Position numbers and translations under genes: made by a program
Shown here: positions 5,328-25,870 of the stretch, piece after piece
Numbering within the stretch: the first letter of the stretch is position 1
Layout: the number at the start of each line of letters is the position of its first letter
Source: Lachnospiraceae bacterium
GTDB taxonomy: Bacteria > Bacillota > Clostridia > Lachnospirales > Lachnospiraceae
DNA: 37,634 nucleotides
Reading direction: 5' to 3'
Assembly (NCBI GenBank): GCA_022510665.1
Contig: JAFLSZ010000009.1
Span: forward strand, 1-37,634
Notes under the pieces: generated by a model
The model's database searches: none
Seen by the model: only the letters and a program-made list of their open reading frames with translations
What the model was told of the DNA's origin: nothing

Positions 5328-6641
5328 TTACCGGAAAAGCTTCCGGATAAACTCTTCTGTTTTCGGGTCCGGATACAGCACGTCACGCAGAGGCGGAAGG
5401 TACAGCACCTTATGCAGTCTCAAAGGAATTTCCTCCGCCTCTCCTCCTGCTACCAGCGCGGTGACGCCGTGCCGTAACAGTTCCTTCGGAAGACGGTTTA
5501 AAAACTCCTCCCAGTCGCACAGACGCCACGGATACAGGTCTCCGAGAACAAAGCGGCTGCCGCATCGAAAAAACTCATTCTCAAACCTCTCAAAACAGCT
5601 GCCGAAATTGATTACCAACACCGAAAAACCCTGTGCCGCACAGCTTCCGATTACGGAAGGAGAGTCCCCCGTAACATACCGTATCCCCCGCAGGGTAAAC
5701 TCCTCCGGTATTTCTTTTTTTCCGCCGAACAGGCTTTTAAAAAGTTTTTGAAACACAAAGCGTCCCGACAAATCAATGCAGGCAATCCGACCTTTTTCTT
5801 TCTCACTGAAATGTCCCGCAAGCAGCGTGCAGACGGCAGCGGTATCCGTGCCCTCGTGTACTCCGGTTACGCCGATACAGTACGTTCCGTTTTCTTTTGC
5901 ACCTGCTTTCTTTGCGTTCCCGCCGGCCTTTTGCTTCCCGTAACAAAGCCTTTGCAAATCTTCTTTTAATTCGCTTACGCTCTGATAACGCTCCGACGGC
6001 AGCGGACGCACGCACCGTTGATAAATCTCATTTAACTCCTTCCCTTTTTTCTTTCCTTTTCCCAGCATAACACCTATGATACAGCCGATTCCATATACGT
6101 CGGAATACTCTCTTGCCTCCCCGCGGTATTGTTCCGGAGCCGCGAATCCGTCCGTTCCAAACACAACTCTCTGAGGGCCTTGTTTGTCCGTCGCGCCGCC
6201 GAAATCAATTAAAGAAAGTCTGTCCCCGTTTATCATCAGATTTTCCGGTTTTACATCCAAATAAAGGATTCCTTTCCGGTGAAGATATTCAATAATTTCA
6301 CAAAGCTGAATGGAATAATGCGAAATGAAAGAGGTTGGAAGGCATTTCTGCCTGATAAGAACTTCATTCAAAGGCTCCCCGCCCATATCTTCTTCAATGA
6401 TGTAAGAAGCGTCATCGTCTTCCTCAATGTCATAAATACAGGGAATCGCCGCGTGACGCAGCTGTTTTAATATGTGTGCTTCTTTCAGGCGCTCCCGGTA
6501 AAACGGCCTTTTTTTACAGAGACGTTTAATCACGCGCCGCTCGCCAAGCACTTTGTGTTCCGCAAGAAACACCTCGCCGCCGCTGCCGTTTGCGAGCAGC
6601 CGCAGAATACGGTATTTCCCGAACAATAATTCTTCTTGCAT
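5328..6641 (-). CDS. Ser/Thr protein kinase fused to a degenerate P-loop domain
   Basis: The protein has 437 residues and no membrane segment. Residues 8-232 form a protein kinase domain: glycine loop LANGSGGEVF, Lys39, catalytic loop YLDVKPEN with Asp129 and Asn134, and IDFGG with Asp146. The usual His-Arg before the catalytic Asp is Tyr-Leu, so it is a non-RD kinase. After a Lys/Gly/Ala-rich linker (about 235-252) comes a MinD/CpsD-like segment, IGVTGVHEGTDTAAV, that resembles a Walker A loop but lacks its Lys. It lacks the PASTA repeats and membrane anchor of PknB. The combination suggests a cytoplasmic regulator, but target and trigger are unknown. AAAGGAG precedes the ATG. Confidence 0.8.
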   Translation of the reverse strand: MQEELLFGKYRILRLLANGSGGEVFLAEHKVLGERRVIKRLCKKRPFYRERLKEAHILKQLRHAAIPCIYDIEEDDDASYIIEEDMGGEPLNEVLIRQKCLPTSFISHYSIQLCEIIEYLHRKGILYLDVKPENLMINGDRLSLIDFGGATDKQGPQRVVFGTDGFAAPEQYRGEAREYSDVYGIGCIIGVMLGKGKKKGKELNEIYQRCVRPLPSERYQSVSELKEDLQRLCYGKQKAGGNAKKAGAKENGTYCIGVTGVHEGTDTAAVCTLLAGHFSEKEKGRIACIDLSGRFVFQKLFKSLFGGKKEIPEEFTLRGIRYVTGDSPSVIGSCAAQGFSVLVINFGSCFERFENEFFRCGSRFVLGDLYPWRLCDWEEFLNRLPKELLRHGVTALVAGGEAEEIPLRLHKVLYLPPLRDVLYPDPKTEEFIRKLFR

Positions 6642-6939: not shown

Positions 6940-7683
6940 ATGACAATCGAACGTTTAAGTGATACACAGATTCGTTGTACGCTGAATAAGCAGGATTTAC
7001 AGGAGCGTCAGTTACAGTTGAGTGAATTGTTTTACGGCAGCGAAAAAGCAAAAGAGTTATTTCATGATTTAATGCAGATGGCATCCTACGAATGTGGTTT
7101 TGACACTGAGGATTTACCTCTTATGATTGAAGCGATTCCGGTGGATGCCGACTGCCTTGTGCTTGTTGTCACCAAGGTAGAAGATTCCGATGAACTGGAT
7201 TCCAGATTTTCAAACTTTACTCCGTTTACGGAAAAAAATAACCAGCCTGAGAAACCGGCTATGCCTGCATTAGCAGATGAGATATTAAATTATTTTTCAC
7301 AATTTAAAGAACTGTTGAGTAAAAAGGCGAGTGAACTCTCTTCCAAAACAGAAGCAGCAGAAGAAGATGATTCAAAGACGCCCGCTTCTCTGGTAAAGAT
7401 GTACCGCTTTGATTCCTTACAGGCTCTCAGCCGTTTTGCGTCAATCATCGCCGCACATTACTGCGGCAGTGTCAAGCTCTATAAAAACGCTTCGGGAGGG
7501 GCCTACTATCTGCTTTTGGATATGCTGGGACATACTGCCGAGGAGTTTAATAAGCTGTGCAACATTGCCTCGGAATACGGAAACTCCGTACCGGCAAACA
7601 ATGCTTCGCTGCTTTATTATCAGGAACACTTTAACCTCATTGACGGAGAAAACCTTTTAGAAACGCTGGCAAGATTAAGTTAA
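6940..7683 (+). CDS. mecA: Adaptor protein MecA
   Basis: This 247-residue cytoplasmic adaptor delivers proteins to the ClpC/ClpP protease. The N-terminal substrate-binding domain (about 1-88) has the family signature MTIERLSDTQIRCTL, the ELFYGSEKAKELFHDLM segment and LPLMIEAIP. An acidic, poorly ordered linker (about 90-148) leads to the C-terminal ClpC-binding domain (about 150-247), with LVKMYRFDSLQALSRFA and YYLLLD. Length and layout are normal. It is a single-gene transcript with its own promoter and terminator, separate from the xylan genes. In Bacilli MecA controls ComK; no competence gene is in this window. Confidence 0.93.
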   Translation: MTIERLSDTQIRCTLNKQDLQERQLQLSELFYGSEKAKELFHDLMQMASYECGFDTEDLPLMIEAIPVDADCLVLVVTKVEDSDELDSRFSNFTPFTEKNNQPEKPAMPALADEILNYFSQFKELLSKKASELSSKTEAAEEDDSKTPASLVKMYRFDSLQALSRFASIIAAHYCGSVKLYKNASGGAYYLLLDMLGHTAEEFNKLCNIASEYGNSVPANNASLLYYQEHFNLIDGENLLETLARLS

Positions 7684-7720
7684 GATTTAACCTTTGTTTT
7701 GAACTTAATGTAATGTAGAA

Positions 7721-7765
7721 AAAAGTTGCATGGAACTATCGTTTTGACAATTCCATGCAACTTTT
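7721..7765. terminator. Bidirectional terminator between mecA and the GH3 gene
   Basis: AAAAGTTGCATGGAA (7721-7735) and TTCCATGCAACTTTT (7751-7765) form a perfect 15-bp stem. A run of six T on the minus strand makes it a good end for the long GH3-terminated operon, and the plus strand has CTTTTATAT for mecA. Confidence 0.85.
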
Positions 7766-7767
7766 AT

Positions 7768-7842
7768 ATCATAGGGTTCAGATGTCAAAAGCCCTTTCGG
7801 GAGCTGACTGCACAAGTATAATTGCTTTGCATTTCCTATGAT
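7768..7842. repeat. Degenerate copy of the palindromic intergenic element
   Basis: ATCATAGG (7768-7775) and CCTATGAT (7835-7842) are inverted ends. Inside, TTCAGATGTCAAAAGCCC and the following bases to 7820 align with the minus strand of the 4980-5096 element from 5096 to about 5051. The right half is lost or replaced by AATTGCTTTGCATTTCCT, which recurs with one change at 27457-27474. Confidence 0.55.
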
Positions 7843-7853
7843 GTTAAATCATA

Positions 7854-10007
7854 TTATAACTGCTCCGTCTTCGCACAGGTTACACAAAAATTCTGCGGTT
7901 TCTTTCCGGTCAGCAGGACACTTCTGTCATCCGGCTGGGAAGCGCCTACAAATACTTCGTATTCTCCCGCATTCAGCATAAGCTTTGCGTCCATATCATA
8001 AAGCGCAAATGCCGCATCATTCAGAACAATTTCTACGGTTTCGCTTTTTCCTGCTGCCACTCTTACTTTCTTTAAGCCTTTCAGCGAAAAATTCGGTGCG
8101 CCTGCAACATCTTTTGCCTTTACATAAACCTGTACGGTTTCTGCGCCGTCATACGCGCCGTTATTCGTCACTGTTGCAGTTACCGTTACGCTGCCGCCTT
8201 TTGCGATTTCTTTCGCGGAAAGCGCCGCGCTGTTTATCGAAAAGTCAGTATAGCCCAGTCCGTAACCGAACGGATACAACGGCTCCTTCTCCATATAACG
8301 GTAGGTTCTGCCCTTCATGTTGTAATCCGTAAACGCCGGAAGCTCCTCCGAAGTACGGTAGAACGTAACCGGAAGCTTTCCTTCCGGAGAGAACTCTCCG
8401 AACAACATCTGTGCCACGGCACGTCCTCCCTGCGCTCCCGGATACCATGCCTGTACAATCGCAGGAATATGCTCTTCCGCCCATGGGAACGCGAGAGCAC
8501 TGCCGGATAAAATCACCAGCACAACCGGCTTTCCGCTTGCGTATATTTCCTGCAGCACCGTATTTTGCAGTCCCGGAAGATCCAGATTCGGCTTGTCGCC
8601 GCTGGCAAACTCGTTACCCTGGTCGCCCTCTTCTCCTTCCAGTCCGGCATCCAGACCCATTACTGCAATGACAACATCCGACTCGTCACATACCGCGCGT
8701 ACTTCCGCGATACGGTCATTTTCTATGCCAAGACCGGATACCTTGTTCCGGAACAGGTGGCACCCTTCGGAATAACGTACCGTAACATCATCTCCGAGAT
8801 ACTCCGAAATTCCTTCCAGTACGGTGACATACTCCGACGCGGTTCCTTCGTAATTGCCGATTAACGCTTTCCGGTTGTTTGCATTCGGTCCGATGACGCC
8901 AACCGTCTTTAACTTCTTTTTATCAAGCGGAAGCGTTTTGTTCTCATTTTTAAGCAGGCACAGAGTCTTCTTCGCAACCTCGAGGTTAAACGCTTTCTGC
9001 TCCTTGCTGTCTACCGCGGAATAATCAATCGTATTGTACGGTACATGCTCCGGCGCATCGAAAATACCAAGACGCATCTTCGTCACATACAGACGCTCTA
9101 CCGCACGTGTCAGCGTTTCTTCGCTTACCAGTCCCTGCTTTACCGCCTCTAACAGATAAACATAAATATTACCGCAGTTCAAATCACAGCCGCTGTTCAT
9201 TGCAAGCGCTACCGACTCAACCGGCGTGCTTGTCAGGGCATGACCCGTATGAAAATCCTTAATTGCCCAGCAGTCGCTGGTAACATGTCCGTCAAAGCCC
9301 CATTCATCCCGCAGAATATCCTGTAACAGCGTCTTGCTGCCGCAGCATGCTTCCCCGTTGGTACGGTTATATGCACCCATTACGGTTTCTACCTTCGCCT
9401 CCTGCACGCACGCCTTAAACGCCGGCAGATAAGTCTCGTATAAATCCTGCTTCGTAACCTCTGCATTAAAACTATGGCGTATATCTTCCGGACCGGAATG
9501 TACCGCAAAATGCTTTGCACAGGCAGCAACCTTTAAATATTTCTCATCTTTTCCCTGCATTCCCTCAATAAAACGTACCGCAAGGCGGGAGGTCAGATAC
9601 GGATCCTCTCCGTAGGTCTCATGCCCTCTTCCCCAGCGCGGGTCGCGGAAAATATTCACGTTCGGCGCCCAGAATGTCAGACCCTTATAAATATCGGTGT
9701 CGCCGTATTTCTGCTGCATATTGAACTTTGCACGTCCCTCGGTGGAAATATGGTCGCCGAGTTCTTCCATCATCTCCTCATCAAAAGCAGCAGCAAGGCC
9801 GATTGCCTGCGGAAACACCGTAGCAACGCCGGCTCTCGCGACGCCGTGGAGCGCCTCGTTCCACCAGTTATATGCCTTGATTCCTAACCGCTCGATTGCT
9901 TTCGCACCGTGCAGCGTCTGAAAAACTTTCTCCTCTAATGTCATTTCTGCGACAAGCGCCTTTGCTCTCTCCTTAAACGAAAGCGTTTCATCCTGATACT
10001 TTTTCAT
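7854..10007 (-). CDS. GH3 beta-xylosidase, cytoplasmic
   Basis: This is a 717-residue glycoside hydrolase family 3 enzyme without a signal peptide. The N-terminal barrel carries YNWWNEALHGVARAG (46-60), typical of beta-xylosidases and arabinosidases rather than beta-glucosidases. KHFAVHSGPEDIRH follows, and the nucleophile Asp245 is in VTSDCWAI. The second domain contains the ENKTLPLDK segment and about residue 460 EGEEGDQGNE. A fibronectin-III-like domain ends the protein. The likely job is releasing xylose, or arabinose side groups, from imported xylo-oligosaccharides. It is the last gene of the large operon, 16 nt behind the GH10 xylanase, and precedes the terminator at 7721-7765. Confidence 0.9.
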   Translation of the reverse strand: MKKYQDETLSFKERAKALVAEMTLEEKVFQTLHGAKAIERLGIKAYNWWNEALHGVARAGVATVFPQAIGLAAAFDEEMMEELGDHISTEGRAKFNMQQKYGDTDIYKGLTFWAPNVNIFRDPRWGRGHETYGEDPYLTSRLAVRFIEGMQGKDEKYLKVAACAKHFAVHSGPEDIRHSFNAEVTKQDLYETYLPAFKACVQEAKVETVMGAYNRTNGEACCGSKTLLQDILRDEWGFDGHVTSDCWAIKDFHTGHALTSTPVESVALAMNSGCDLNCGNIYVYLLEAVKQGLVSEETLTRAVERLYVTKMRLGIFDAPEHVPYNTIDYSAVDSKEQKAFNLEVAKKTLCLLKNENKTLPLDKKKLKTVGVIGPNANNRKALIGNYEGTASEYVTVLEGISEYLGDDVTVRYSEGCHLFRNKVSGLGIENDRIAEVRAVCDESDVVIAVMGLDAGLEGEEGDQGNEFASGDKPNLDLPGLQNTVLQEIYASGKPVVLVILSGSALAFPWAEEHIPAIVQAWYPGAQGGRAVAQMLFGEFSPEGKLPVTFYRTSEELPAFTDYNMKGRTYRYMEKEPLYPFGYGLGYTDFSINSAALSAKEIAKGGSVTVTATVTNNGAYDGAETVQVYVKAKDVAGAPNFSLKGLKKVRVAAGKSETVEIVLNDAAFALYDMDAKLMLNAGEYEVFVGASQPDDRSVLLTGKKPQNFCVTCAKTEQL

Positions 10008-10023
10008 AGCAAATCTCTTCTCC

Positions 10024-10989
10024 TTAAAAATTCATAATTCGATAGAATGCTTCCTTCGGCTCGTGTTTATCATCAAACAGAAGCGGCCAGTTCTTCCTTC
10101 CGAACACCGGGAAATTATTTAACCAGCTCACCTCGTCTGACGCTCCCCAGAGGGTTACCGCATCGATATGTTTGTGATACTCACGGAATATCTTAAAGCA
10201 CTGGTCATAATAATCCGCCTGCTTCTTTAACAGCTCCGGATCCAGAGACGGGAACTGAGGTTCCTTTTCCTTATAAAGCGACACATCCATCTCGGAGATA
10301 CGAATCATAAGACCGGTCGAAGCATAGGTCTCAATCGAGCGCTTTATTTCGTCAATACTCGGATGGTAGATAGAAGCATGAAACTGCATTCCCATACCGG
10401 AAATCGGAACGCCCTCCGCCAGCAGCTCTTTTAAAAGACGCATAATCTTTTCGCGCTTTTCCGGAACACAGTCATTATAATCATTATAATACAGTGCCGT
10501 ATTCGGAAGCACCTCTTTTATTACACGGAACACCTTAGGAATATAGTCATCACCCAAAACCGCCTTCCATTTGGTATCGCGCAGATATGTATCCTTCTTG
10601 TCTTCGATTGCCTCATTTACCGCGTCAAAGGTGGCAAGTTCGCCAAAATGCTCCTTTACCTTTTCCACATGCGCTTTTAACGTTGCAAGCAGGCCTTCCT
10701 CATCCGTATTCTCAAAGATAAATCCCGGCGTCTGATTATGCCAAACAAACGTATGACCGTGGAGCGCTATATCGTTCTCTTTCGCAAACGAAGCAATCTT
10801 GTCCGCCGGCTCAAAAGAATACTCCCCCGGTTTTCTGCAAAGACTGGAATATTTCATTTCGTTTTCGCAGGTAATGCTGTTAAAATGCTTCTTTAGGAGG
10901 TCTGCATGCGTATCAATTGTACGCCAGCTAACCTCTGTTCCGATCTTAAAATACGGCTGATACTTCTCTTTTAAACTCTCTGTCTGCAT
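10024..10989 (-). CDS. GH10 endo-beta-1,4-xylanase, intracellular
   Basis: This 321-residue single-domain GH10 enzyme has no signal peptide and no carbohydrate module, so it acts in the cytoplasm on imported xylo-oligosaccharides. All core residues are present: TCENEMK (40-46), HGHTFVWH (77-84), acid/base Glu126 in FDAVNEAIED, nucleophile Glu233 in RISEMDVS and LWGASDEVSWL. AAAGGAAGG lies about 8 nt before the ATG. It sits between the GH10-like lipoprotein gene (23-nt gap) and the GH3 gene (16-nt gap). The intact motifs make it a direct internal reference for the altered ones in the neighbouring paralogue. Confidence 0.93.
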   Translation of the reverse strand: MQTESLKEKYQPYFKIGTEVSWRTIDTHADLLKKHFNSITCENEMKYSSLCRKPGEYSFEPADKIASFAKENDIALHGHTFVWHNQTPGFIFENTDEEGLLATLKAHVEKVKEHFGELATFDAVNEAIEDKKDTYLRDTKWKAVLGDDYIPKVFRVIKEVLPNTALYYNDYNDCVPEKREKIMRLLKELLAEGVPISGMGMQFHASIYHPSIDEIKRSIETYASTGLMIRISEMDVSLYKEKEPQFPSLDPELLKKQADYYDQCFKIFREYHKHIDAVTLWGASDEVSWLNNFPVFGRKNWPLLFDDKHEPKEAFYRIMNF

Positions 10990-11012
10990 AAATTTTACCT
11001 TCCTTTAAAACA

Positions 11013-12350
11013 TTAATATAATTTAATGGTTTCATCTAACAATACTCCAAAGAACGCATCTTTAGGATTTAACCCCGCATCAAAGAGTACCGGATAATTT
11101 GTTTCCGGAACCGTAACTACCGTCTCGCCCGTTTCCTCATCAACCGACTCCGTAGGCTGATTTAACCATGAAACATCATCTGTCAGTCCATATATCGTCA
11201 CGTTTGCAATATCATAAGTATTTTGGTCCTCTACACGGACAAGCCAGTTAAAAATATTTTTATAGCGTTTCGCCAAAGTTGTTAAAATCTCTTCTTCGGT
11301 TCGCTCTAAATCGTTTTTCTGTGTTGCCGCCATATTAATATCCAACTGTGATATGTGGACTTCTATGCCAAAATTGGAGGCCGCATTAAACACATCGTCA
11401 ATTGTCATCGTATTAGGTGACTGGTAATTCCAGTGTCCCTGTACCGCGAAACCGTCAATTAAATTCTTTTCCTTTAACATATTTACAAGTGCTATTGAAG
11501 ACAATCGCAGTGTCGGAGAATCAAACTCATTTTCATTGTAAAAAAGCTTCTGCGTACTGTCCGCATACTTTCGCGCAAACTCATACGCCTTTACTATATA
11601 ATCATCTCCCATTGTTTCATACCAGCCGGAAGATACACGATACCTCAAAGGGTGTCCTTCCGAGACTGCAATTGCTTCCTCCAATACATCCCAACAGCTC
11701 ACAACTCCCGGATAATTCGTGTTGCAATGTTCTATAATATCTTTTATGTAATTTTCCATACGGGTTTCCATAACATCAGCGGAAGCGTATGAAGTTGTTT
11801 CCTCTCCTGTTGACTCGGAAAAATCAGAAGTAAAGAACCATGCCGGTGTCTCATGTGTGATAAGTGTCGAACCACGCACCGTCATATTGTTTTCCTGTGC
11901 AAATTGTAAAATAACATCAGCGCCCGAAAAATCAAGCACAGCCCTGTCCCTGTTTCCGCTTGCCGTCGTTGCTTCGTAATCTAATATATCGCTCGGGTTT
12001 AATTCATTCATACAGGTTAAACTGTTGAACTGTTCTTTAATCAACGCCTGTTTTTTTTCATCTTTAATTTCGTCCTGCGTTACCGCAACGCCAAACTGAA
12101 AATAATCCTGGTATGTTTCATATAAACTCGGAAACTTTCCGGTTTCATTATATTGTTCTATAAAGTTTTTCTTATTTGAGTTTGAATTATCCTCACTCGG
12201 AACCGGCGTCGGTGTCACGGACGGCGTCGATATTCGTATCGGTCTTGGTGTAATCGACGGTACGGGACCAACTTCCACTGTTCCCGCGCATCCGCCGGAC
12301 AGCATTATCATTGTGGCAGTCAATATGCCAAACAATATCTTTTTTTTCAT
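11013..12350 (-). CDS. GH10-like surface lipoprotein with lost catalytic residues
   Basis: The protein has 445 residues: a signal peptide with Cys21 in MLSGGC, a Pro/Thr/Ser/Asn linker (about 25-55) and a GH10-like domain (about 60-445). Aligned with its neighbour, key sites have changed. The nucleophile Glu is Gln335 (HISQLDI, codon CAG). The Asn before the acid/base is Glu224 (WDVLEEA, acid/base Glu225 kept). TCENEMK became TCMNELN, HGHTFVWH became RGSTLITH, and the late Trp in LWG is Tyr. Retaining hydrolysis should therefore fail. I infer a xylan-binding or sensing surface protein; unusual residual chemistry is possible. The ATG at 12350 has AAAGGGGG 7 nt upstream and gives a proper signal peptide. 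Confidence 0.85.
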   Translation of the reverse strand: MKKKILFGILTATMIMLSGGCAGTVEVGPVPSITPRPIRISTPSVTPTPVPSEDNSNSNKKNFIEQYNETGKFPSLYETYQDYFQFGVAVTQDEIKDEKKQALIKEQFNSLTCMNELNPSDILDYEATTASGNRDRAVLDFSGADVILQFAQENNMTVRGSTLITHETPAWFFTSDFSESTGEETTSYASADVMETRMENYIKDIIEHCNTNYPGVVSCWDVLEEAIAVSEGHPLRYRVSSGWYETMGDDYIVKAYEFARKYADSTQKLFYNENEFDSPTLRLSSIALVNMLKEKNLIDGFAVQGHWNYQSPNTMTIDDVFNAASNFGIEVHISQLDINMAATQKNDLERTEEEILTTLAKRYKNIFNWLVRVEDQNTYDIANVTIYGLTDDVSWLNQPTESVDEETGETVVTVPETNYPVLFDAGLNPKDAFFGVLLDETIKLY

Positions 12351-12436
12351 CTGTAAGCCCCCTTTCATTACCTCTTCGTTACATCTTCACTACATTTTTC
12401 TGTCCCAAACCCTTTGTCCGTTTTATTAAAGTTTAC

Positions 12437-12464
12437 GTAAAGGGGCGGTTGCCCGCCCCTTTAC
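12437..12464 (-). terminator. Stem-loop after the solute-binding lipoprotein gene
   Basis: GTAAAGGGGCGG (12437-12448) pairs with CCGCCCCTTTAC (12453-12464) around a TTGC loop. The tract after it on the minus strand is only moderately T-rich (AAACTTTAATAAAAC). It may partly terminate or protect the upstream message, which would let the solute-binding protein be made in excess over the enzymes behind it. Confidence 0.6.
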
Positions 12465-12509
12465 AGAAACTATGCACTCTTTGAAAAGTCGCAACTAAAG
12501 TCGTATATA

Positions 12510-13928
12510 CTACTTGTTCGCCTCGTTGATAGCATCATTCCAAGAATTTTGAATTTCTTCAATCTTCTCTGCCGGTGTCTGAGATCTAAATGGATAAGAG
12601 TAGAATAAAGCTCCGGTATCCAAATTGTAAACAAGGGACATATGCAGTACTAAACCTACACCCGGCTCCCAGAAAGTAGCAATCGACTCATCTACTGCTC
12701 TCTCGTCGCGGAAGTTGTTGTAGTACAGATCCTTCCAGTCACCCTCATCTTCATAACCCGGAGTCGGATTCGTCCAAAGGTTATAAGCGAACGCAATCTT
12801 GGAAGCGGTCTCTGCATCATAGCAGGACGGGATAATTACTACGTTATCAGAGTAATAGGTGTGATAAGTATCGGAACCGTCCGGCTTCGGGCAGCAAACA
12901 AAACCGAAGTCGTCTTCCATGTCTTTCCACATCTGACCTGCCATATAGGTCTCGTTAAACTGCATTGCAAACCAAGCATCAGAGAAAGCAGCCTTGAACC
13001 AATCCCACTGAGCGCCTTCCGGTGCCGGCATCTCGTAACCTGCATCACCAAGCTCCTTTAAGAAGTTCAGTGCGTTCAGAACTTCCTGAGAATTGGAATT
13101 GTTGACAAACTTACCGTTCTCTACCTTAACAAGCTCTACGCCCGTAGAAGTAATAAACTGCTTACAGATATCCGGTCCGAAGTTTGCCATTGCATAAGTA
13201 TCCGGAACACCGTCTGCGTTTGTATCACGGGTCAGCTGTCCGCAGATTTCCTTAAACTTGGACCATGTCCACTGGCCGCTCTTCTGTAACTCATACGGAA
13301 GATTCGGGTCAAGACCTGCTTCTTCGAAGAGTCTCTTGTTCCAGTAAAGTCCGCCTCTTGCCTCCGGCTTACCAACAGCGAGACCGTAAACGGCACTTCC
13401 CTTTGTCATAAGCTCAATTACCGTCTGATTCCACTTCTCATCGGAGAGATCAAACTCTGCCAGCGTAGACAGGTCATAGAACAGACCGTTGCTCATCGGC
13501 TTTGCAACAAAGGACGCATCCAGAACGAATACCTGTGCTGCCGGAGCGTTCGCTAAGATAGAGGTCGTACAAGTATCGGTCATACCACCCCAGTCTGCAA
13601 CTGCGGTCTGACGCATCTTGAAATTGTAATCCGCCATAATCTTCTCGCGATAAGCCTTTGTAGCCTCTTCCTGAGCATTTGAAGGTTCCGGCTCTTCCTC
13701 CGGGCTCCAGTGGTCACCGATAATGATTTCCATACCGCCAAGATCTCTTGCCGGAATCGGAGTTGCGGTCGGCTTTGTTGTACCAGCCGGCTGGGTCGGT
13801 GCAGTGGTAGCAGAGTTGGTCGGTGTGCCGGTCGGATCCGTACTGGTCTCCTTTTTGCCACAAGCGGCCAGACTACCAAGAACTGTTGTTGCAGCAAGGA
13901 ACGCTGCAGCATACTTTTTAATTCTCAT
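12510..13928 (-). CDS. Sugar ABC transporter solute-binding lipoprotein
   Basis: This 472-residue lipoprotein has a signal peptide ending in LAAC (Cys23) and a Thr/Pro/Ala-rich tether (about 28-60). The remainder is a large extracellular solute-binding domain of the family-1 type, with WNKRLFEEAGL and WTWSKFKEICGQLTRDTNADGVPD, the latter a common metal-loop-like motif in such proteins. The permeases at 14116-16024 lie directly upstream, so this is their receptor. Context points to xylo-oligosaccharides or acidic xylo-oligosaccharides as ligand. The start is fixed by AGGAGG about 9 nt upstream and by the signal peptide; the frame is open further to 14039. No ATPase gene is nearby. Confidence 0.9.
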   Translation of the reverse strand: MRIKKYAAAFLAATTVLGSLAACGKKETSTDPTGTPTNSATTAPTQPAGTTKPTATPIPARDLGGMEIIIGDHWSPEEEPEPSNAQEEATKAYREKIMADYNFKMRQTAVADWGGMTDTCTTSILANAPAAQVFVLDASFVAKPMSNGLFYDLSTLAEFDLSDEKWNQTVIELMTKGSAVYGLAVGKPEARGGLYWNKRLFEEAGLDPNLPYELQKSGQWTWSKFKEICGQLTRDTNADGVPDTYAMANFGPDICKQFITSTGVELVKVENGKFVNNSNSQEVLNALNFLKELGDAGYEMPAPEGAQWDWFKAAFSDAWFAMQFNETYMAGQMWKDMEDDFGFVCCPKPDGSDTYHTYYSDNVVIIPSCYDAETASKIAFAYNLWTNPTPGYEDEGDWKDLYYNNFRDERAVDESIATFWEPGVGLVLHMSLVYNLDTGALFYSYPFRSQTPAEKIEEIQNSWNDAINEANK

Positions 13929-13996
13929 ACCAAAATTCCTCCTTTTTAATTTGGGTTTGGCATCCCATTCGACTTTATGTGTCGACTCCTCTTTTA

Positions 13997-14019
13997 TAGT
14001 AAACGCATCTGCGTCACTA
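13997..14019. promoter_or_regulatory. Imperfect palindrome in the leader of the solute-binding gene
   Basis: TAGTAAACGCATCTGCGTCACTA combines ACGCA-TC-TGCGT with outer TAGT/ACTA arms, about 70-90 nt upstream of the start at 13928. It could be an operator or a leader hairpin. A minus-strand TATAGT lies near 14056 but has no convincing -35 box. Confidence 0.35.
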
Positions 14020-14115
14020 TCATAAAATATATCACCCACACTACGTTTTTACTATTATACTACATTTTAACACAAAATGCTAGACATTTCTACCCTTTCT
14101 TTAAAATTTCTTCAT

Positions 14116-15114
14116 TTACATCTTAATTCCTGTCTGGCTCAGGCTTTCTACGAACCCTTTCTGCGCGAACAGATACAAAAGTATCAACGGCGCAATCGCC
14201 ATCAGGACACCGGTAGAAATCATCTGCTGCAAGAACGCCTCTGCCGCAAATGTACCCCAGCCCTGCCGCTGTACATAATTGTCCAAACGTCCCGCAATTG
14301 AATTGAGTCCCTTTGTCAAAACTTGCTTGTCTCCGAGGAACAACTTTGTATAAAAAGAATCCGTCCACTGCCATACAAAGGCAAACAGGAAACAGGAAGT
14401 AATCATGGCCTTCGCGTCCGGAAGCATAATGCGGACAAACGTCTGGAAATTGCCGCAGCCGTCTACATAAGCCGCTTCCTCAAGTTCTTTCGGAACTCCG
14501 CGGAAGTACTGACGGAGCATATAAATATACAATCCGTTTTTCAGACCCATACAAGTCATACACATCAGCACATACGGCGTCATGGAACCAATGAGGTTCA
14601 ACTTACGTTTGAGAACCAAATTAAAAATGCCGAATACATCAAACGAACTGAAATTTAAATACAGGGAAGTCAGAATCGTCTGCGGCGGTACAATAATCAC
14701 AAGGATTACGCAGGCAAACCAAAGATTCTTAAACGGGAATCTGAATCTGGCAAACCCATATCCTACCAGTGTACAGGCTATTACCTGAAGGCAGCTGATT
14801 AAAAGGGCAATCCACAAAGAATTCCACATACACTTCCAGTAATTGATAAGCTCGTCTATCAACCGGTAGTTTCCAAGCGTAAAATTACGCGGAATAGCAA
14901 TAACCGTCGCATCATACAAGTCGTCCTGCTTCATAAAGCTGACCGAAAGTTTGTTTATAAGCGGCTGTAAAATCAGGAAGCACAAGCCGAACAGAAGCAG
15001 TGCCCTGATAACACGGTATGTATACTTCCAAATCGTCTTTTCCAGAAGATAACCGTGTGTCTTTTTATTCCGTTCCCAGAAATCACTTTTCTTTACTGTC
15101 TTTGTTTTACTCAT
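14116..15114 (-). CDS. Carbohydrate ABC permease, MalG type (importer 2)
   Basis: This 332-residue inner-membrane permease has a basic cytoplasmic N-terminus (about 1-30) and about six hydrophobic segments. The EAA loop EEAAYVDGCGNFQTFVRIMLP contacts the shared ATPase. It forms the heterodimeric channel with the product of 15107-16024; the two genes overlap by eight bases. The solute-binding lipoprotein gene follows after a gap of about 190 nt. The N-terminal tail is somewhat longer than usual for MalG-type proteins. Confidence 0.92.
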   Translation of the reverse strand: MSKTKTVKKSDFWERNKKTHGYLLEKTIWKYTYRVIRALLLFGLCFLILQPLINKLSVSFMKQDDLYDATVIAIPRNFTLGNYRLIDELINYWKCMWNSLWIALLISCLQVIACTLVGYGFARFRFPFKNLWFACVILVIIVPPQTILTSLYLNFSSFDVFGIFNLVLKRKLNLIGSMTPYVLMCMTCMGLKNGLYIYMLRQYFRGVPKELEEAAYVDGCGNFQTFVRIMLPDAKAMITSCFLFAFVWQWTDSFYTKLFLGDKQVLTKGLNSIAGRLDNYVQRQGWGTFAAEAFLQQMISTGVLMAIAPLILLYLFAQKGFVESLSQTGIKM

Positions 15115-16024
15115 AATAGTACACCTTCTTCGAAATAATAGCCGCCAGAATGCCTAATATTACGGCAACAATCATAAAGTAAATCCATGCCATGGCGGAA
15201 CCCATGCCGTAATCCATTCCCGGGGTTATTTTTTTAGTGATAAAATCCATGACTTCATTATCTGTCCGCATAAAGAAGTCAACTACTGAGTAAACCAAAT
15301 TCACGAGTATCATGGAACTTACCAGCGGGAATGTAATCTTCCAAAAACTTTCCCAAGCGGTACAGCCTTCCATCTTTGCCGCCTCATACATACTCGGTGA
15401 AACTGTCTGCAGTCCGGATAAGAAGATAACAATCTGGATACCCGATGCAAGCGCAACATCATAAACTACATCAATAATCTCAAATACCGGCTCCATAATC
15501 TTTTGACTGACACCGGAAGACCTCAGTATTTCCTCCAGAGCCCCGGTGATATCCGCACCGGAAGACTCCGCAATAACGTCTTTCATTCCCGACATTAGGA
15601 TATTGTTCGTTTCCAAACCGATCAAAACACCGGAAGAAAGAATTACCGGCAGAAAGAAGATTGCACGTACAAAACCTCTTCCCTTAAACTCCTGATTTAA
15701 CAACAGCGCGATAAAGAAGCTGAATACCAGAATCGCCGGAACCTGAAGCGCCATTTTGGAAAGCGTATTCATTAACAAATCCTTATACTGCGGTACAACT
15801 AAAAGTGCACGATAATAGTTTGTATCCTTCAAACTGGTAATAAGAGTTGCATCAAACGTTGACGCACTATTTGTACTTACACTTACATTACAAAGACTCA
15901 GGTATAAGGTCTCCGCCATCGGTTTCAACATAAATGCAACAAATCCGATAATAAAAGGACTGATAAACAGATAACCTGCAATTGCATTACGCCTTCGTAA
16001 GTTTCTTGGTTTTCTTGCTTTCAC
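15107..16024 (-). CDS. Carbohydrate ABC permease, MalF type (importer 2)
   Basis: This 305-residue permease has about six membrane segments, an EAA loop YEAAKMEGCTAWESFWKITFP, and an enlarged region between the early segments. It pairs with the MalG-type neighbour. It starts at a GTG that directly abuts the TAA of the DUF5696 gene, and its ribosome site is inside that gene, so translation is probably coupled. This tight link ties the DUF5696 protein to importer 2. Confidence 0.92.
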   Translation of the reverse strand: MKARKPRNLRRRNAIAGYLFISPFIIGFVAFMLKPMAETLYLSLCNVSVSTNSASTFDATLITSLKDTNYYRALLVVPQYKDLLMNTLSKMALQVPAILVFSFFIALLLNQEFKGRGFVRAIFFLPVILSSGVLIGLETNNILMSGMKDVIAESSGADITGALEEILRSSGVSQKIMEPVFEIIDVVYDVALASGIQIVIFLSGLQTVSPSMYEAAKMEGCTAWESFWKITFPLVSSMILVNLVYSVVDFFMRTDNEVMDFITKKITPGMDYGMGSAMAWIYFMIVAVILGILAAIISKKVYYYE

Positions 16025-18565
16025 TTAATCCCCGCTCCTTTCTACCAGATAATCTCTTGCCGGAACCGTTAAAGCACCGTCTGTATAGGTTTCATCATTA
16101 TAGTTTACATAAACCACCGTTCCGTTCTCATACGTCGTGGCGGTAACGCCCTTAGCAAGTACGGCATGGCCGGTAATGTACTGGTTATTAAGACCTGCCA
16201 TCTCCTCTTGGTAGCGGAGGCAGTAATTCTTCGCCCACTCTTTCCATCTGTCATAATCGGCAGCGAAGTACTCCATATACTCCGTATCGCTCAAAGCATC
16301 TCCGGAAGCTTTCATAAAGGTGAAGTAAAGGCCGGCGCCTGCTTCGGCACATCTTAATACGGAATCAACGACATCGCCGGAAAGGTTTACGGACTCTCCC
16401 GTATAGTTTACGAGTCCGTGCAGTACGATTTCATAGAACGGAATCGTATAGTCCAAAATCTGATACGGCTTTCCTAACAGCTCAATATCCGTAATAATAT
16501 CCGCGTACGGAACCGCGTAATCATTTCCGCCGGAAAGCATAATCTTAGTACCGTCAGACTTAATTGCCGCGAGCGCATCCGCCTGCATCTTCATAACCTG
16601 TTCACGGGTTACGATACGCTTCGGATTGTAATCGGCACTCAGCAGATATCCGACATCTTCAAAGCCGACGCCTGCCTTATACTTGGAAGCCTCTTTGGCG
16701 AGGTTCTCCATCAGTTTAATGCAGACACTAGGACGAAGCAGATAGTAGGAATCCATACGAGTCTCTTCCATCGCGCCGAAGAAAATAGCTGAGAATACGG
16801 AAAGCTCCGTTACCTCACGGCTTACATACTTTGCGGAATCCCTCGAACTGATAAAACCGTCCCAAATATCGCTGTTGTATGCATTCTCCACACGGCCGCT
16901 CAGATAGATGTCGATATTATTGGAATTAGCGTAACTCATTAATGCGTTGAGCGCTTTCTTTCCTCCCATACCACTGTTCAGGTCAATATCCTTCGGAATG
17001 GAATGGTTTACTCCTCCGTTCATCCAGCCGGTGTAGCGTACCGACAAATTCTTATAGCCGTCTGCGGTCATTTCTTCCAACATGGCCTTTGCTTCGGCAA
17101 AGGTGGTAAGAACATCCGGACGTTTTACCGGAACACCGAGAACCGGTTTAATACGGTCGATTGCACCGATAATTTCAACGGCCGTCGGAAGCTCCGTATC
17201 CGCGACTTTCTGAAGCTGCGGATACCTTTCCTGTAAGTATTCGCGGTACACCTCCGCCATATTTACATAGTCCGTACCTTCCAAAAACGTATAGCTCTGT
17301 ATAATGCTTCCTTCCGGAACCTTTTTTTCAAAGCCCATAATCGTACGGTCGGACTTCGCGGAAATATCCATCGTATCACTGTGAATAATTTCATAGGTTA
17401 CATACGCGTTGTTGTAACTGTTACGTCTGCCGCTTACATCCGCCTGAATGGCAGCAATCGTACCGTACTCTTCCATAATCGATACAAAAGAGCTGTCGCC
17501 GTTGGCGATGCCGTACACAGGGAAAGGAGCACGGGTCTCATTTACAATCGAATCACGTTTCTGGGCGTAATCCCAACCGTAAACGTCTGAGTAATATGCA
17601 GACTGTTCCGATTTTCCGTTATTAAAGTTAATAACCGCACCCGAACCTTCCGGAACGAACAGATAACCTTCATCTTCAGTGCTTCCCGCCCCGAAATAAG
17701 GCAGCACGGAAATCTTTGTCAGCGGGTAATCATCCTTATACTCGATTTCACTATTCGGAAGCTCTACTACCAGCTTATTTCCGTCCAAACGGTAAACAAC
17801 GGTCACGTTAATAATCGCCTTATCCTTGTTGGAATTGATATTGTAACGTTCTATGTCCTGTTCGTAATCCGCTACGGTGTACCCTACGGACTCGAAAAGT
17901 TCCTGCAGTGCTTCCTTCATGTAATCCTTCGTATTATCACGCAATACATATACACGCTCATTTTCGAGGTCCGGATACATGGAAAGCAATTCACTCTTAT
18001 CATCCGTTGCAAACAGATTATTGATATCATACCGGCGGTAGTTGTTCTCAACTCTCTTCTGCTGCGAACGGTCCATCTTCTCGTAAAACTCCATCATACG
18101 GGATTCCGGAACTGCAATCGGTATATAGAATACCTTTGAAACTTTACCGATGGTATACATTACCTGAATTTCATTATCCGAGCTTTCTATTTCGTAAAGC
18201 TCTGTCGAAATACTGAACTCATAATTATTGAGCAACGTATTTACACCGTTTTCGGTACTGTACTCTACTATCAGCGTAGACTGCATTTTTCTTTTCTCTG
18301 CGGCATCCGCGCCCGGATCATTTGCAGCATTCACCGGATTGGAGTACCAAACCTTACCGGTGTTTTTCTGCGTCAAAGTAAAATACGTTGTCGCAGGGTC
18401 AAACTCAAACTTTAAATCATCATTTTCCAGTATGTATTCCTTACCTTCATACAGCTCGGCTTTATAAGCGCGAATTTCAATATCCTTTTCTTCCGCCTCT
18501 TTGCTACAGCCGCAAAGGACACCTGCCAAAAGAAGGAACACTAACCATTTACCGATTCGTTTCAC
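16025..18565 (-). CDS. DUF5696 lipoprotein (possible uncharacterised glycosidase)
   Basis: The protein has 846 residues and starts at GTG with a lipoprotein signal ending LCGC (Cys20). A long beta-rich region (about 40-470) is followed by a barrel-like region (about 480-790) with motifs such as VRYTGWMNGGVNHSIP, GVGFEDVGYLLSADY and FYEIVLHGLVNYTGE. A short beta domain with TTYENGTVVYVNYNDE ends it, as seen at the ends of many glycosidases. I recognise it as DUF5696, a family I recall beside sugar importers and YIP1 proteins in Lachnospiraceae and Paenibacillus. Function is unknown to me. I infer an extracellular, membrane-attached barrel enzyme or sugar-binding protein. The gene is coupled to a permease gene on its downstream side. 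Confidence 0.75.
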   Translation of the reverse strand: MKRIGKWLVFLLLAGVLCGCSKEAEEKDIEIRAYKAELYEGKEYILENDDLKFEFDPATTYFTLTQKNTGKVWYSNPVNAANDPGADAAEKRKMQSTLIVEYSTENGVNTLLNNYEFSISTELYEIESSDNEIQVMYTIGKVSKVFYIPIAVPESRMMEFYEKMDRSQQKRVENNYRRYDINNLFATDDKSELLSMYPDLENERVYVLRDNTKDYMKEALQELFESVGYTVADYEQDIERYNINSNKDKAIINVTVVYRLDGNKLVVELPNSEIEYKDDYPLTKISVLPYFGAGSTEDEGYLFVPEGSGAVINFNNGKSEQSAYYSDVYGWDYAQKRDSIVNETRAPFPVYGIANGDSSFVSIMEEYGTIAAIQADVSGRRNSYNNAYVTYEIIHSDTMDISAKSDRTIMGFEKKVPEGSIIQSYTFLEGTDYVNMAEVYREYLQERYPQLQKVADTELPTAVEIIGAIDRIKPVLGVPVKRPDVLTTFAEAKAMLEEMTADGYKNLSVRYTGWMNGGVNHSIPKDIDLNSGMGGKKALNALMSYANSNNIDIYLSGRVENAYNSDIWDGFISSRDSAKYVSREVTELSVFSAIFFGAMEETRMDSYYLLRPSVCIKLMENLAKEASKYKAGVGFEDVGYLLSADYNPKRIVTREQVMKMQADALAAIKSDGTKIMLSGGNDYAVPYADIITDIELLGKPYQILDYTIPFYEIVLHGLVNYTGESVNLSGDVVDSVLRCAEAGAGLYFTFMKASGDALSDTEYMEYFAADYDRWKEWAKNYCLRYQEEMAGLNNQYITGHAVLAKGVTATTYENGTVVYVNYNDETYTDGALTVPARDYLVERSGD
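16035..16041 (-). promoter_or_regulatory. Ribosome site that sets the GTG start of the permease
   Basis: AAAGGAG lies within the last codons of the DUF5696 gene, about 10 nt before the GTG at 16024. The upstream stop TAA (16025-16027) touches this start codon. Confidence 0.75.
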
Positions 18566-18573
18566 TTGCTTTT

Positions 18574-18580
18574 CCTCCTT
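18574..18580 (-). promoter_or_regulatory. Ribosome site that sets the GTG start of the DUF5696 gene
   Basis: AAGGAGG lies 8 nt before the GTG at 18565. The open frame continues to 18634, but those extra residues have no ribosome site and would spoil the signal peptide. Confidence 0.8.
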
Positions 18581-18584
18581 TCGG

Positions 18585-19253
18585 TTAATACACTCGGAAT
18601 ACAATTTCTTTGTAAATAGATACAAAATATGCAATACCGTCCGTAATCAAGCTGAAAAACAACATAAGCAGGAATACGATAATCATCATGCCGGCAACGG
18701 ATGCAATAATCGCGAAAATCGCCTTTCCAAGGGAATAGTCATGGATTTGCATTACCGATGCCAGTATCAGGAAACCGCACCAAACCAACGCCAGATTTTC
18801 AAAATAACCAAGGAACGCGCCTTCTTCTCTCGTCAGAACATTGCTCACAATAGTTACAATGTTCTCAATCAGAATATATGGTGTCAGCGCATATGCGGTG
18901 CCGATATAAATGTCCGTAAAACGTCCTTTTCCGTCAAACAGCGTAGTCAGGCACCAGTTCGCCGCACAGTAAATAATAAGCGGTCCCAAAATACCAAGTA
19001 TCTGTCTCCAGATGTTTATTTTATCCCAAAGCACCTGATTAAATATAATGCTGGTATAACGCAGGCTCCAGAGATTTGTCATAAATGTCAGGGCAACCAA
19101 AATATGTGCAGCGGCAAGAGAACCTCTTTTTTCATGAGTCAAATCCCAGAAACCGTCAAACGGATGCGTAATCACATATAAGGAATAGCGAAGTGATTTC
19201 AGTAACTTCTGAGCCGCCTGCTTATTTACCTTTTCGGCTAAGTTTAAGTTCAT
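18585..19253 (-). CDS. YIP1 family membrane protein
   Basis: The protein has 222 residues. A polar amphipathic N-terminus with LRYSLYVITHPFDGFWDLTHEKRGS (given here only as a landmark near residues 22-46) precedes about five to six hydrophobic segments, as in YIP1/YckC-like proteins. It has no enzymatic motif. Members of this family are recurrent partners of DUF5696 and sugar importer genes as far as I recall, but no role is established. The start at 19253 is chosen because GAGG lies 9 nt upstream; ATG at 19259 is a close alternative. The gene overlaps the end of the NHL/TPR gene by 32 bases and precedes the DUF5696 gene by 19. Confidence 0.8.
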   Translation of the reverse strand: MNLNLAEKVNKQAAQKLLKSLRYSLYVITHPFDGFWDLTHEKRGSLAAAHILVALTFMTNLWSLRYTSIIFNQVLWDKINIWRQILGILGPLIIYCAANWCLTTLFDGKGRFTDIYIGTAYALTPYILIENIVTIVSNVLTREEGAFLGYFENLALVWCGFLILASVMQIHDYSLGKAIFAIIASVAGMMIIVFLLMLFFSLITDGIAYFVSIYKEIVFRVY

Positions 19254-20745
19254 GTTCATGTTCCTCAAGCGCCTCCCTCTTTACTTTTTTCACTGTTTTG
19301 ACTATCGACGGTACGATAATCAGAACAATCAGCACGGCAATAACATAGCCTATGTTATTTTCAACCCAGTCCTCCCGGTAATACTTCCATGCACGCGAAT
19401 AGTTTCTCGTATAATACTTTACTTTGAAATACTGCATCGCTCCCGTATAATCTTTCTGACGAAGAAGCGATCTGCCGATTCCGTTAAAAGCAAGGTCGTA
19501 ATTCGCGTTCATTTTTAATACTTCTTCCCAGTACTCCGCGGACTCTTCATACTTGCCGAGTTTGTACAGTTCCAATGCGTCCCGGATTAACATACCGTAG
19601 TCTGTCAGCTGGAACCTTGTAATGCCGCCGGAAGCGGAATCCAGTACATATAAGTCCTCTCCCATATGGTCAAGGGCAACCGGATTCTGGAAGTAGCCCA
19701 GCATATTTCCCGGACCGCCGAACGCGTACAGGAGATTTCCCTGTTCGTCATAAGCGAAAATACGTCCTCTGATACGGTCTATCGCGAAATACATCTCATT
19801 GTCAAACGCGGTAATATCAACCAGACGGGACGGGCCGTTCATACCGGCTACGTTATCCCACTGCGCGTCACCTACCGGAGGTATTACACCGTTTCGAATC
19901 AGAATGTCACTTCCGAGCGAATTCAGCTTACGAATCGGTTTCGCGTCTCCGTTCATAACCGCCCATTCTTCAAACACTGCGGTCGTACAGTACACAAAAC
20001 CGTTACCGTCTATGTAAAGATTGTTGTACTCCGTCGGTGTAAAGCTGTCCATACGGTTCCGCTGTTCCTGTGTGGAAAGCAGTCTCTTAATATAGTCCGC
20101 CATTTTAAATACTACTTGGTTCGCTCCGATATAACCGATAAACTCACCGTCTGCCTCAAACTCCATAAAGCCTTTGTTGACGTTTCTTACCAAAACAAAC
20201 GCACGACCTGCACGGTCAGCCACAATCTTGGTCGGCAGAAAGCTTAACGTCTGATCCACCGTTGCGTCACTCGGCTGTGTGATAAGCTTAACCAAATTTA
20301 AATCGTTATCAAGATGCACTACTCTCTGGTTTTCGGTGTCCGCAATATAGAAATCGCCGTTTACCGCTACGAAAACATCATTCGGTGTATTGAACGTAGT
20401 CACTTCTGCGTCACCGTAAAACTCAGCAATCTCGCGGACAATCGACATTTCCTTGCCCTGCACCTGAATCTCGACAATGCGGTTGTTTCCGGTATCTACA
20501 ACATATATCCTATCGCCACGGATATACATTCCCTGAGGAGCCCTGAACTCTTTGGTTCCGAGCTGCTCGCCCGTGATAAAATGCGTTGGGGTATACGCGT
20601 CCGGAGACTCACATTCATTCTCCCAGACATCATAATTATACGTATAGGTACTAACTTCCGTCGCCTCGGCAACTCCGGCAGGATAAATCGTGAAAACTGC
20701 CATTATACAAAGGAGAGCCGCAGCAAATTTTCTTTTCAGCTTCAT
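19222..20745 (-). CDS. Secreted NHL beta-propeller/TPR protein with C-terminal anchor
   Basis: The protein has 507 residues. A signal peptide (about 1-29) leads to a beta-propeller of NHL-type repeats (about 65-375), visible as GDRIYVVDTGNNRIVEI, NGDFYIADTENQRVVHLD and EDLYVLDSASGGITRF. Two TPR-like helical repeats (about 385-450) contain YKLGKYEESAEYWEEVL and LLRQKDYTGAMQYF. A membrane segment (about 465-482) and a basic cytoplasmic tail end the chain. The propeller should face outward, where it could bind protein or glycan partners. It begins 12 nt after a permease gene with AGGAGG before the ATG. Its function is not known; a scaffold for the YIP1 and DUF5696 proteins is an inference. Confidence 0.85.
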   Translation of the reverse strand: MKLKRKFAAALLCIMAVFTIYPAGVAEATEVSTYTYNYDVWENECESPDAYTPTHFITGEQLGTKEFRAPQGMYIRGDRIYVVDTGNNRIVEIQVQGKEMSIVREIAEFYGDAEVTTFNTPNDVFVAVNGDFYIADTENQRVVHLDNDLNLVKLITQPSDATVDQTLSFLPTKIVADRAGRAFVLVRNVNKGFMEFEADGEFIGYIGANQVVFKMADYIKRLLSTQEQRNRMDSFTPTEYNNLYIDGNGFVYCTTAVFEEWAVMNGDAKPIRKLNSLGSDILIRNGVIPPVGDAQWDNVAGMNGPSRLVDITAFDNEMYFAIDRIRGRIFAYDEQGNLLYAFGGPGNMLGYFQNPVALDHMGEDLYVLDSASGGITRFQLTDYGMLIRDALELYKLGKYEESAEYWEEVLKMNANYDLAFNGIGRSLLRQKDYTGAMQYFKVKYYTRNYSRAWKYYREDWVENNIGYVIAVLIVLIIVPSIVKTVKKVKREALEEHEHELKLSRKGK

Positions 20746-20757
20746 AGTCCTCTCCTC

Positions 20758-21615
20758 CTAATCTTTAATACCCGAACTTGCCATTGTCTCAAGAATGTTA
20801 CTCTCCGAGAAAATGAAGATACCGATCGGGACAATCATCATTACCAAAGTTACCGCCGCACCTGCACCGGCACGTGCAACACCGCCGGCAACAATCTGCT
20901 GCAGCGCATACGGCAGGGTCTTTAATTCTTCGGAATAAATGTATGTAGACTGCGGGTTATTCCAAAGACCCTGTACGGAGAAAATAATCAGCGTCAACCA
21001 TGCCGGTTTTACGTTCGGCATTACGATTTTCGCGAAAATTCCCCATTCCTTCGCGCCGTCCACCTTTGCGGCATCTAACAGTGCATCCGGAATACCTTCC
21101 ATGAACTGCTTCATAAGGAAGATTCCCATCGGCGCCGCGAACGCCGGAACAAACGCCGCGAGGTAACTGTCTACCCAGCCTATCTTTGCCATTATCAAAT
21201 AGCTCGGAATGGAAGTTACATAACCGTTGAACATAAGCGCCGTGGTAATCAGGGTGAAAAACTTTCTTCCGCCCGGAAAATCATATTTTGCAAGCACATA
21301 TGCACCCATGGAAGCTATTAAGAGCTGGCCTGCCGTACCAACCGCCGTAATAAATACGGTATTGAATATGTATCTTGTAAACGGCACCCAGGACTGTCCC
21401 ATTGTAACAAACAAATCCGAGAAGTTATCCAACGTAGGATTTCTTACAAGAATTGTAGGCGGGAACTTATAAATTTCATCTAGTGGCTTAAATGCATGAC
21501 ATACGGCATAAATCAACGGGATTACCATGATTGCGCCAAACATGATTAAGACCAAATATACTGCGACATCGCCCACGCGGGAACGATTCGGCTGTCTTCG
21601 TTTTAATATACTCAT
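20758..21615 (-). CDS. Carbohydrate ABC permease, MalG type (importer 1)
   Basis: This 285-residue permease has about six membrane segments and the EAA loop LLDAAKVDGAKEWGIFAKIVMP. It pairs with the MalF-type protein encoded upstream. The start at 21615 has AAGGAGAG about 7 nt upstream; the longer frame to 21660 adds a charged tail without a ribosome site. The C-terminus SNILETMASSGIKD is typical of the family and resembles the end of the importer 2 MalG protein. Confidence 0.92.
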   Translation of the reverse strand: MSILKRRQPNRSRVGDVAVYLVLIMFGAIMVIPLIYAVCHAFKPLDEIYKFPPTILVRNPTLDNFSDLFVTMGQSWVPFTRYIFNTVFITAVGTAGQLLIASMGAYVLAKYDFPGGRKFFTLITTALMFNGYVTSIPSYLIMAKIGWVDSYLAAFVPAFAAPMGIFLMKQFMEGIPDALLDAAKVDGAKEWGIFAKIVMPNVKPAWLTLIIFSVQGLWNNPQSTYIYSEELKTLPYALQQIVAGGVARAGAGAAVTLVMMIVPIGIFIFSESNILETMASSGIKD

Positions 21616-21683
21616 CGCTTCTCTCCTTCTCTCTTTTTGCATTGCCTGCCGGGCAGGCATAACTCTTTGTATTAAAAATCAAA

Positions 21684-22619: not shown

Positions 22620-22632
22620 GTCATCCTCCTTT

Positions 22633-25551: not shown

Positions 25552-25841
25552 AGTCTTCTCCTTTCCTGTGCATATTCCCTTTGCACATTCGGTCTGTCGT
25601 AACGACAAACCAAAGCCGGCGCGCACCTTTCCTTCCAAAAGCTGATTTCCTGTTCCTCCTTTGGCTTATATCGAATGCGTATCGGCTTTATCCTTTGGTA
25701 AAAATCACCAAAGGTTTTCTTTTCCCGTATTTGTACATAATCACCAAAAACGGCGGTTCCGGGAAAAGATTTTTTGTATCGTACAGTGCCATTATAGTCG
25801 TTTTTGACATTTTTATGACCGGCACTCCACAACCTAAGTTA
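25552..25841 (-). promoter_or_regulatory. Structured leader of about 285 nt before the xylan operon
   Basis: On the minus strand this untranslated leader contains a perfect hairpin CCTTTGGT/ACCAAAGG (25692-25714), a 9-10 bp hairpin GGTCTGTCGT/ACGACAAACC (25591-25611) and a GTGCA/TGCAC pair (25568-25586) near the ribosome site. The minus-strand decamer TTTGGTGATT appears twice, at about 25740-25749 and 25702-25711 by eye. It matches no riboswitch class I recognise. Small frames across it have no ribosome site. Confidence 0.5.
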
Positions 25842-25870
25842 ATTATATTATACTATTTGTATAATTTCAA
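25842..25870 (-). promoter_or_regulatory. Promoter of the 12-gene xylan operon
   Basis: TTGAAA (25865-25870), a 17-nt spacer and a perfect TATAAT (25842-25847) on the minus strand sit in AT-rich DNA. It is the only strong promoter found upstream of the run that ends at 7854. Confidence 0.75.

Follow-up and report, generated by a model that had tools for sequence, protein, structure and literature searches.

A GH10-type lipoprotein beside an ABC-importer SBP in gut Lachnospiraceae is predicted to be a catalytically inactive, maintained pseudoenzyme

The exported GH10-type lipoprotein (here pseudo-GH10) encoded in the window, that is, the whole stretch of 37,634 nucleotides from a Lachnospiraceae bacterium that was analysed, is on the evidence of its sequence almost certainly catalytically dead. 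Its most likely role, to which we assign a probability of about one half, would be to capture xylan fragments or oligosaccharides for the neighboring solute-binding protein (SBP) of an ABC importer. The genes and the stem-loop of the locus that bear on this reading are the following.

7854..10007, (-) strand: GH3 glycosidase closing the cluster (Pfam, synteny)
10024..10989, (-) strand: intact cytoplasmic GH10 with E126 and E233, the next gene downstream (Pfam, alignment)
11013..12350, (-) strand: pseudo-GH10 lipoprotein of 445 residues (ORF, Pfam)
12437..12464, (-) strand: GC-rich stem-loop of 12 pairs in the spacer between the SBP and pseudo-GH10 genes
12510..13964, (-) strand: SBP lipoprotein of the ABC importer, directly upstream in transcription (Pfam SBP_bac_1)
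14116..16024, (-) strand: two ABC permeases of the same importer (Pfam BPD_transp_1, synteny)
16025..20745, (-) strand: DUF5696, Yip1 and NHL/TPR proteins of the same operon (family scans, synteny)
16025-18634, (-) strand: within these, the DUF5696 protein (637 bits), which like the Yip1 and NHL/TPR proteins is encoded between two groups of ABC permeases

The open reading frame of pseudo-GH10 spans 11013-12368 on the (-) strand, and a start at 12350 gives the 445-residue protein, which consists of a signal peptide with a lipobox (MLSGGC, the GGC ending in Cys21), a Pro/Thr-rich linker up to about residue 60 and a (β/α)8 barrel at approximately residues 65-440. The match to PF00331 (215 bits against a cut-off of 22.1; residues 82-442 of the 451-residue form) covers profile positions 2-308 of 311 and thus the whole domain, while in NCBIfam no model scored above threshold and a xylanase/feruloyl esterase model matched below it. 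An AlphaFold2 model built from ten orthologues has a mean pLDDT of 80.5, with values below 50 (in segments of at least 3 residues) confined to residues 1-59. In VIA-align the model superposes on CbXyn10C (5ofk) over 330 residues with a Z score of 41.4 and an rmsd of 2.1, from which the GH10 fold is predicted to be intact, with a (β/α)8 barrel that matches solved GH10 structures.

The active site has been altered to a much greater extent. The motifs TCMNELN, RGSTLITH, E224-E225, HISQLD and TIYG of pseudo-GH10 align unambiguously with TCENEMK, HGHTFVWH, N-E, RISEMD and TLWG of the adjacent GH10, and two positions are central:

11346..11348, (-) strand: Gln335 (codon CAG) at the GH10 nucleophile position (codon read, alignment)
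11676..11681, (-) strand: Glu224-Glu225 (alignment; coordinates by codon arithmetic from 12350)

Glu225 is the kept acid/base position, and Glu224 stands where Asn is invariant. The original prediction had named the Gln335 codon, the retained Glu225 with its changed predecessor and the alteration of all three -1 motifs (TCENEMK, HGHTFVWH and LWG), and each of these was verified by the codon read or the alignment. The sugar-binding subsites were located by sequence alignment to a set of 15 contact residues, in TmxB numbering, from a docking study of a Thermotoga GH10 that gives the residues of subsites -2 to +2 (PMC6163442). Seven of the 15 contacts are kept, namely N115, E225, Y271, N272, Q304, H306 and W395, which correspond to N68, E153, Y196, the S197 equivalent (here Asn), Q228, H230 and W308 of TmxB. 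At the -1 subsite H104 (S161), W108 (T165), N152 (E224) and the nucleophile E259 (Q335) are gone, and at the -2 subsite E67 (M114), K71 (N118), Q111 (E167) and W300 (Y387) are gone and the N68 contact is retained; the E67 position is variable among active GH10s as well. Pseudo-GH10 therefore lacks the nucleophile Glu on β7, the Asn-Glu acid/base motif and the -1 and -2 residues that mark an active xylanase. Both catalytic Glu residues are present in all 148 other distinct GH10 sequences that were compared, including the seven others of the same genome, so the loss lies far beyond chance. Taken together with the lost nucleophile and -1/-2 residues, this makes xylanase activity by the GH10 mechanism very unlikely, and the predicted catalytic death is upheld by the loss of eight of the 15 contacts, the nucleophile among them.

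An orthologue of pseudo-GH10 is found in all ten sampled genomes of the genus, a group of uncultured gut Lachnospiraceae, and in each it has an intact frame and lipobox and directly follows the gene for the importer SBP. The other nine orthologues share 41-49% identity with the window protein along the full length and keep just 1-4 of the 15 subsite contacts. The equivalents of H104, W108, K71, Q111, N152 and W300 are lost in all ten, the W300 position being Glu or Asp in eight orthologues and Tyr387 in the window protein. The catalytic pair itself varies: the nucleophile position holds Gln in the window protein, Asn in G302, Gly in G306 and Glu in the other seven, the acid/base is lost in eight of the ten, and elsewhere in the clade the N-E motif is replaced by D-D, S-D, D-N and similar pairs. 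One member, G301, has Glu at both catalytic positions and little of the surrounding pocket. The pair thus appears to decay by differing substitutions that affect the acid/base, the nucleophile or both, with Gln as one of several end points. A count of homologues sharing the nucleophile Gln, which the original prediction had called for, gave none; a shared Gln as the hallmark of the group is therefore ruled out, the residue being private to the window species among the homologues, and the diagnostic feature in the alignment is rather the loss of the surrounding pocket. No member of the clade was found outside the genus in samples, as distinct from censuses, of the family (299 genomes), order (392) and class (391, a set partly overlapping in genomes), and the non-genus loci among the best 80 contig matches keep both catalytic Glu residues.

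In addition to what has been lost, three loops that lie on the barrel's substrate face have been elongated:

11763..11831, (-) strand: longer β3-α3 loop, between F173 and R197 (loop length comparison)
11265..11345, (-) strand: longer β7 loop (loop length comparison)
11085..11177, (-) strand: longer β8 loop, D391 to F423 (loop length comparison, model)

The β3 loop has 23-33 residues in the clade and 10-22 in active GH10s. The β7 loop has 27 residues in all ten members against an active median of 19, and is not unique, since a few active sequences, the intracellular GH10 among them, also have a long one. The β8 loop, partly modelled as a hairpin, has 31 residues in all ten, compared with a median of 12 and a maximum of 25 in active proteins. 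The fixed lengths of the β7 and β8 loops argue for a new constraint on the substrate face. In three sister pairs the dN/dS of the gene is 0.08-0.14, rough values since dS exceeds 1, and by this estimate the clade is under purifying selection, even as its protein sequence evolves faster than those of most operon neighbors. An intact fold and frame, maintained and not decaying, had been part of the original prediction and is borne out by the superposition on 5ofk, the ten orthologues and these dN/dS values. As a separate observation, in the G303/G299 and G301/G300 operons (L073, L075, L076 and L077) dS is 0.2-0.5 for the SBP and permeases and 0.8-1.9 for the adjacent pseudo-GH10 and GH3, which suggests that the importer block has been exchanged between species or that its codons are strongly constrained.

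The origin of the protein can be followed in a maximum-likelihood tree built from 65 GH10 domains, in which the ten pseudo-GH10s are monophyletic (100/100) on a long stem and the fork that unites them with L085, L086 and L012 has a support of 99/96. L085 and L086, both Oscillospiraceae MAGs, encode lipoprotein GH10s with intact WDVVNEA and QVTELD motifs in the same operon slot. The gene order of L086 is that of the genus (permease-permease-NHL/TPR-Yip1-DUF5696-permease-permease-SBP-GH10), and the short contig of L085 shows permease-SBP-GH10. The more distant G352 has an N-terminally extended lipoprotein with an intact GH10 domain right after the nearest relative of the SBP. The active same-slot proteins (L085, L086 and, with an extra N-terminal region, L159) share with pseudo-GH10 the position after the SBP, the lipoprotein N-terminus and the GH10 domain, whereas both catalytic Glu residues and the -1 motifs are intact in them and, in L085 and L086, the elongated loops are missing. 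Since these sister proteins occupy the same slot with both catalytic Glu residues, the most parsimonious explanation is that the importer operon once encoded an active membrane-bound xylanase, which was converted in place to a maintained pseudoenzyme. The intracellular GH10 had been regarded as a paralogue lying next to pseudo-GH10; its adjacency and intactness hold, but it is ruled out as a recent duplicate, being 31% identical and placed on a different branch of the tree. A separate GH10 group of the same genome and genus (L003, L057, L051 and L059-L061) retains both catalytic Glu residues, but the -1 His is replaced by Tyr (GMQGY/GMQAY) and the -2 Trp by Phe (TLFG), the group possibly representing a GH10 subtype of another specificity.

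The placement of pseudo-GH10 inside an import operon, likewise predicted, holds with the SBP and permeases upstream and the synteny in ten of ten genomes. The only PDB relative of the SBP by sequence is an arabino-oligosaccharide-binding protein (6rjy), a weak match at E 1.5e-6. The DUF5696/Yip1/NHL-TPR gene order is conserved in the genus and in L086, and no mention of DUF5696 was found in the open-access papers searched. Downstream, the intracellular GH10 adjoins pseudo-GH10 in the window and in G306 only, the next recognised gene in the other eight genomes being the GH3, which is conserved in the genus at 84-89% identity. The locus as a whole holds a glucuronoxylan set of importer, GH3, GH10, GH43, CE15-type esterase, GH67 and UxuA. 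All ten genomes of the genus contain the spacer stem-loop, and L086 has a shorter one; in its alignment all cells pair, four pairs are changed on both sides and none of 500 shuffles scored as high, and an Rfam search over 7600-26300 gave no match, the stem-loop included. The element may set the transcript level of the SBP apart from that of the downstream gene. Further upstream, 22633-25638 on the (-) strand encodes a 1001-residue protein with an SBP domain confined to its C-terminal part (636-902) and, close to the N-terminus, a stretch weakly resembling Golvesin_C.

In the capture role proposed here, the ancestor of the genus would have had an active lipoprotein GH10 beside the importer SBP, which lost the catalytic machinery, gained the elongated substrate-face loops and has been retained since. 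Anchored in the membrane and presumably exposed at its outer face, pseudo-GH10 would hold xylan fragments there by means of the remaining aglycone and -1 contacts (Y271, N272, Q304, H306 and W395) together with the new loops, and would hand them over to the adjoining SBP. Cutting would be left to other, active exported GH10s of the cell; none of the genome's other GH10s has lost its catalytic residues, and several start with lipoprotein-like or plain signal-like sequences, so this task appears to be covered. The capture role is also supported by the continuation of the operon into the glucuronoxylan set and by the precedent of BACOVA_03431. The -1 and -2 glycone contacts are normally the strongest xylan contacts of a GH10. 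As these are largely gone in the window protein and almost wholly in the other nine, binding through the classical cleft is doubtful and the ligand could have changed, and with the glycone contacts lost, more so in the relatives, retention of xylan binding as such is uncertain.

The loss of the glycone contacts throughout the clade fits the strongest rival, a tentative one, in which the barrel no longer binds sugar and has become a protein-docking subunit for the SBP, the permeases, the DUF5696 protein or an active xylanase. The identical β7 and β8 loop lengths in all ten members, despite an overall identity of just 41-49% between the window protein and the other nine, and the invariable location beside the SBP gene, would be in keeping with such a role. 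However, the window protein, which branches first in the clade, retains several aglycone and -1 contacts, and the dS between G303 and G299 of 0.20-0.25 for the SBP and permeases, as opposed to 1.15 for pseudo-GH10, gives no sign that pseudo-GH10 and the SBP are tightly co-inherited. A related and likewise tentative reading makes the GH10 barrel a dedicated accessory receptor of a Gram-positive gut ABC importer, with the β3, β7 and β8 loops forming a new docking or ligand site; if true, the importer would possess, in addition to its SBP, another binding protein that derives from an enzyme.

It is unlikely that pseudo-GH10 is an enzyme of altered reaction, with new acidic residues at the barrel mouth forming another active site. 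The Glu at the nucleophile position in seven of ten members, the acidic residues at the W300 position in eight, the D-D at the N-E position and the two catalytic-position Glu residues of G301 would speak for it, but in the window protein these positions are occupied by Gln335 and Tyr387, and no catalytic arrangement is common to all members, although a maintained enzyme should have one. The sensing role that the original prediction had envisaged as an alternative to binding, with the lipoprotein reporting xylan to a regulator, is highly improbable and found no support: membrane anchoring and operon context, and nothing further, point that way, but family scans of the main ORFs of the window revealed no histidine kinase, response regulator or anti-sigma factor, and the Ser/Thr kinase encoded at 5328-6641 is located past MecA, in a longer gene order kept across the genus. 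Hardly credible is a decaying, functionless gene, for which the missing catalytic residues and a protein evolution faster than in most of the operon could be cited, as against the complete frame, lipobox and constant slot in ten of ten species, a dN/dS well below 1 and the fixed loop lengths.

The capture reading has a close parallel in BACOVA_03431 of Bacteroides ovatus, a GH10-like surface lipoprotein reported in 2015 by Rogowski et al. to be inactive and xylan-binding, its inactivity resulting from the loss of the nucleophile and from disruption of the -2 subsite; those authors were aware of no other natural inactive GH10 (PMC4491172). A distinct functional class, as originally suggested, is therefore not new. 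Both proteins are GH10-type lipoproteins of xylan import loci with the nucleophile lost (Q335 here) and the -2 subsite disrupted (the E67, K71, Q111 and W300 contacts here). In contrast, BACOVA_03431 belongs to a Bacteroidetes PUL with SusC/SusD and pseudo-GH10 to a Firmicutes ABC importer; moreover, in a comparison made with BACOVA_03431 by description only, pseudo-GH10 has an active relative in the same slot to which its loss is traced back, the loss is fixed across ten species, and the loops are elongated. The tree and the operon slot suggest that pseudo-GH10 arose separately, out of active lipoproteins of Firmicutes. A search of the open literature returned as other inactive GH10s BACOVA_03431 and papers restating it. 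The concept of an inactive GH10 binding lipoprotein thus appears to be already known, with pseudo-GH10 as a Firmicutes counterpart tied to an ABC importer, and the clade would apparently represent a second lineage of naturally inactive GH10s. As the ten losses form a graded series and relatives in the same slot are still active, the conversion of an enzyme to a binding protein would be traceable residue by residue, and annotation by family profile would call all ten proteins xylanases and so overstate the xylan-degrading capacity of rumen and gut genomes.

Among solved structures the closest, tied in Z score with others, is the engineered inactive xylanase CbXyn10C E140Q/E248Q with xyloheptaose (5ofk), whose nucleophile Gln aligns with Gln335; there only two Glu residues were altered, by design, whereas in pseudo-GH10 most glycone contacts are naturally gone. 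A glycoside hydrolase fold repurposed after the loss of catalysis is likewise seen in the pseudoglycosidases YKL-39 (GH18) and klotho (GH1-like; reviewed in PMC7828330) and in the GH28 pseudoenzymes of beetles (PMC6549527), which differ from pseudo-GH10 in family and host and have no link to an ABC importer.
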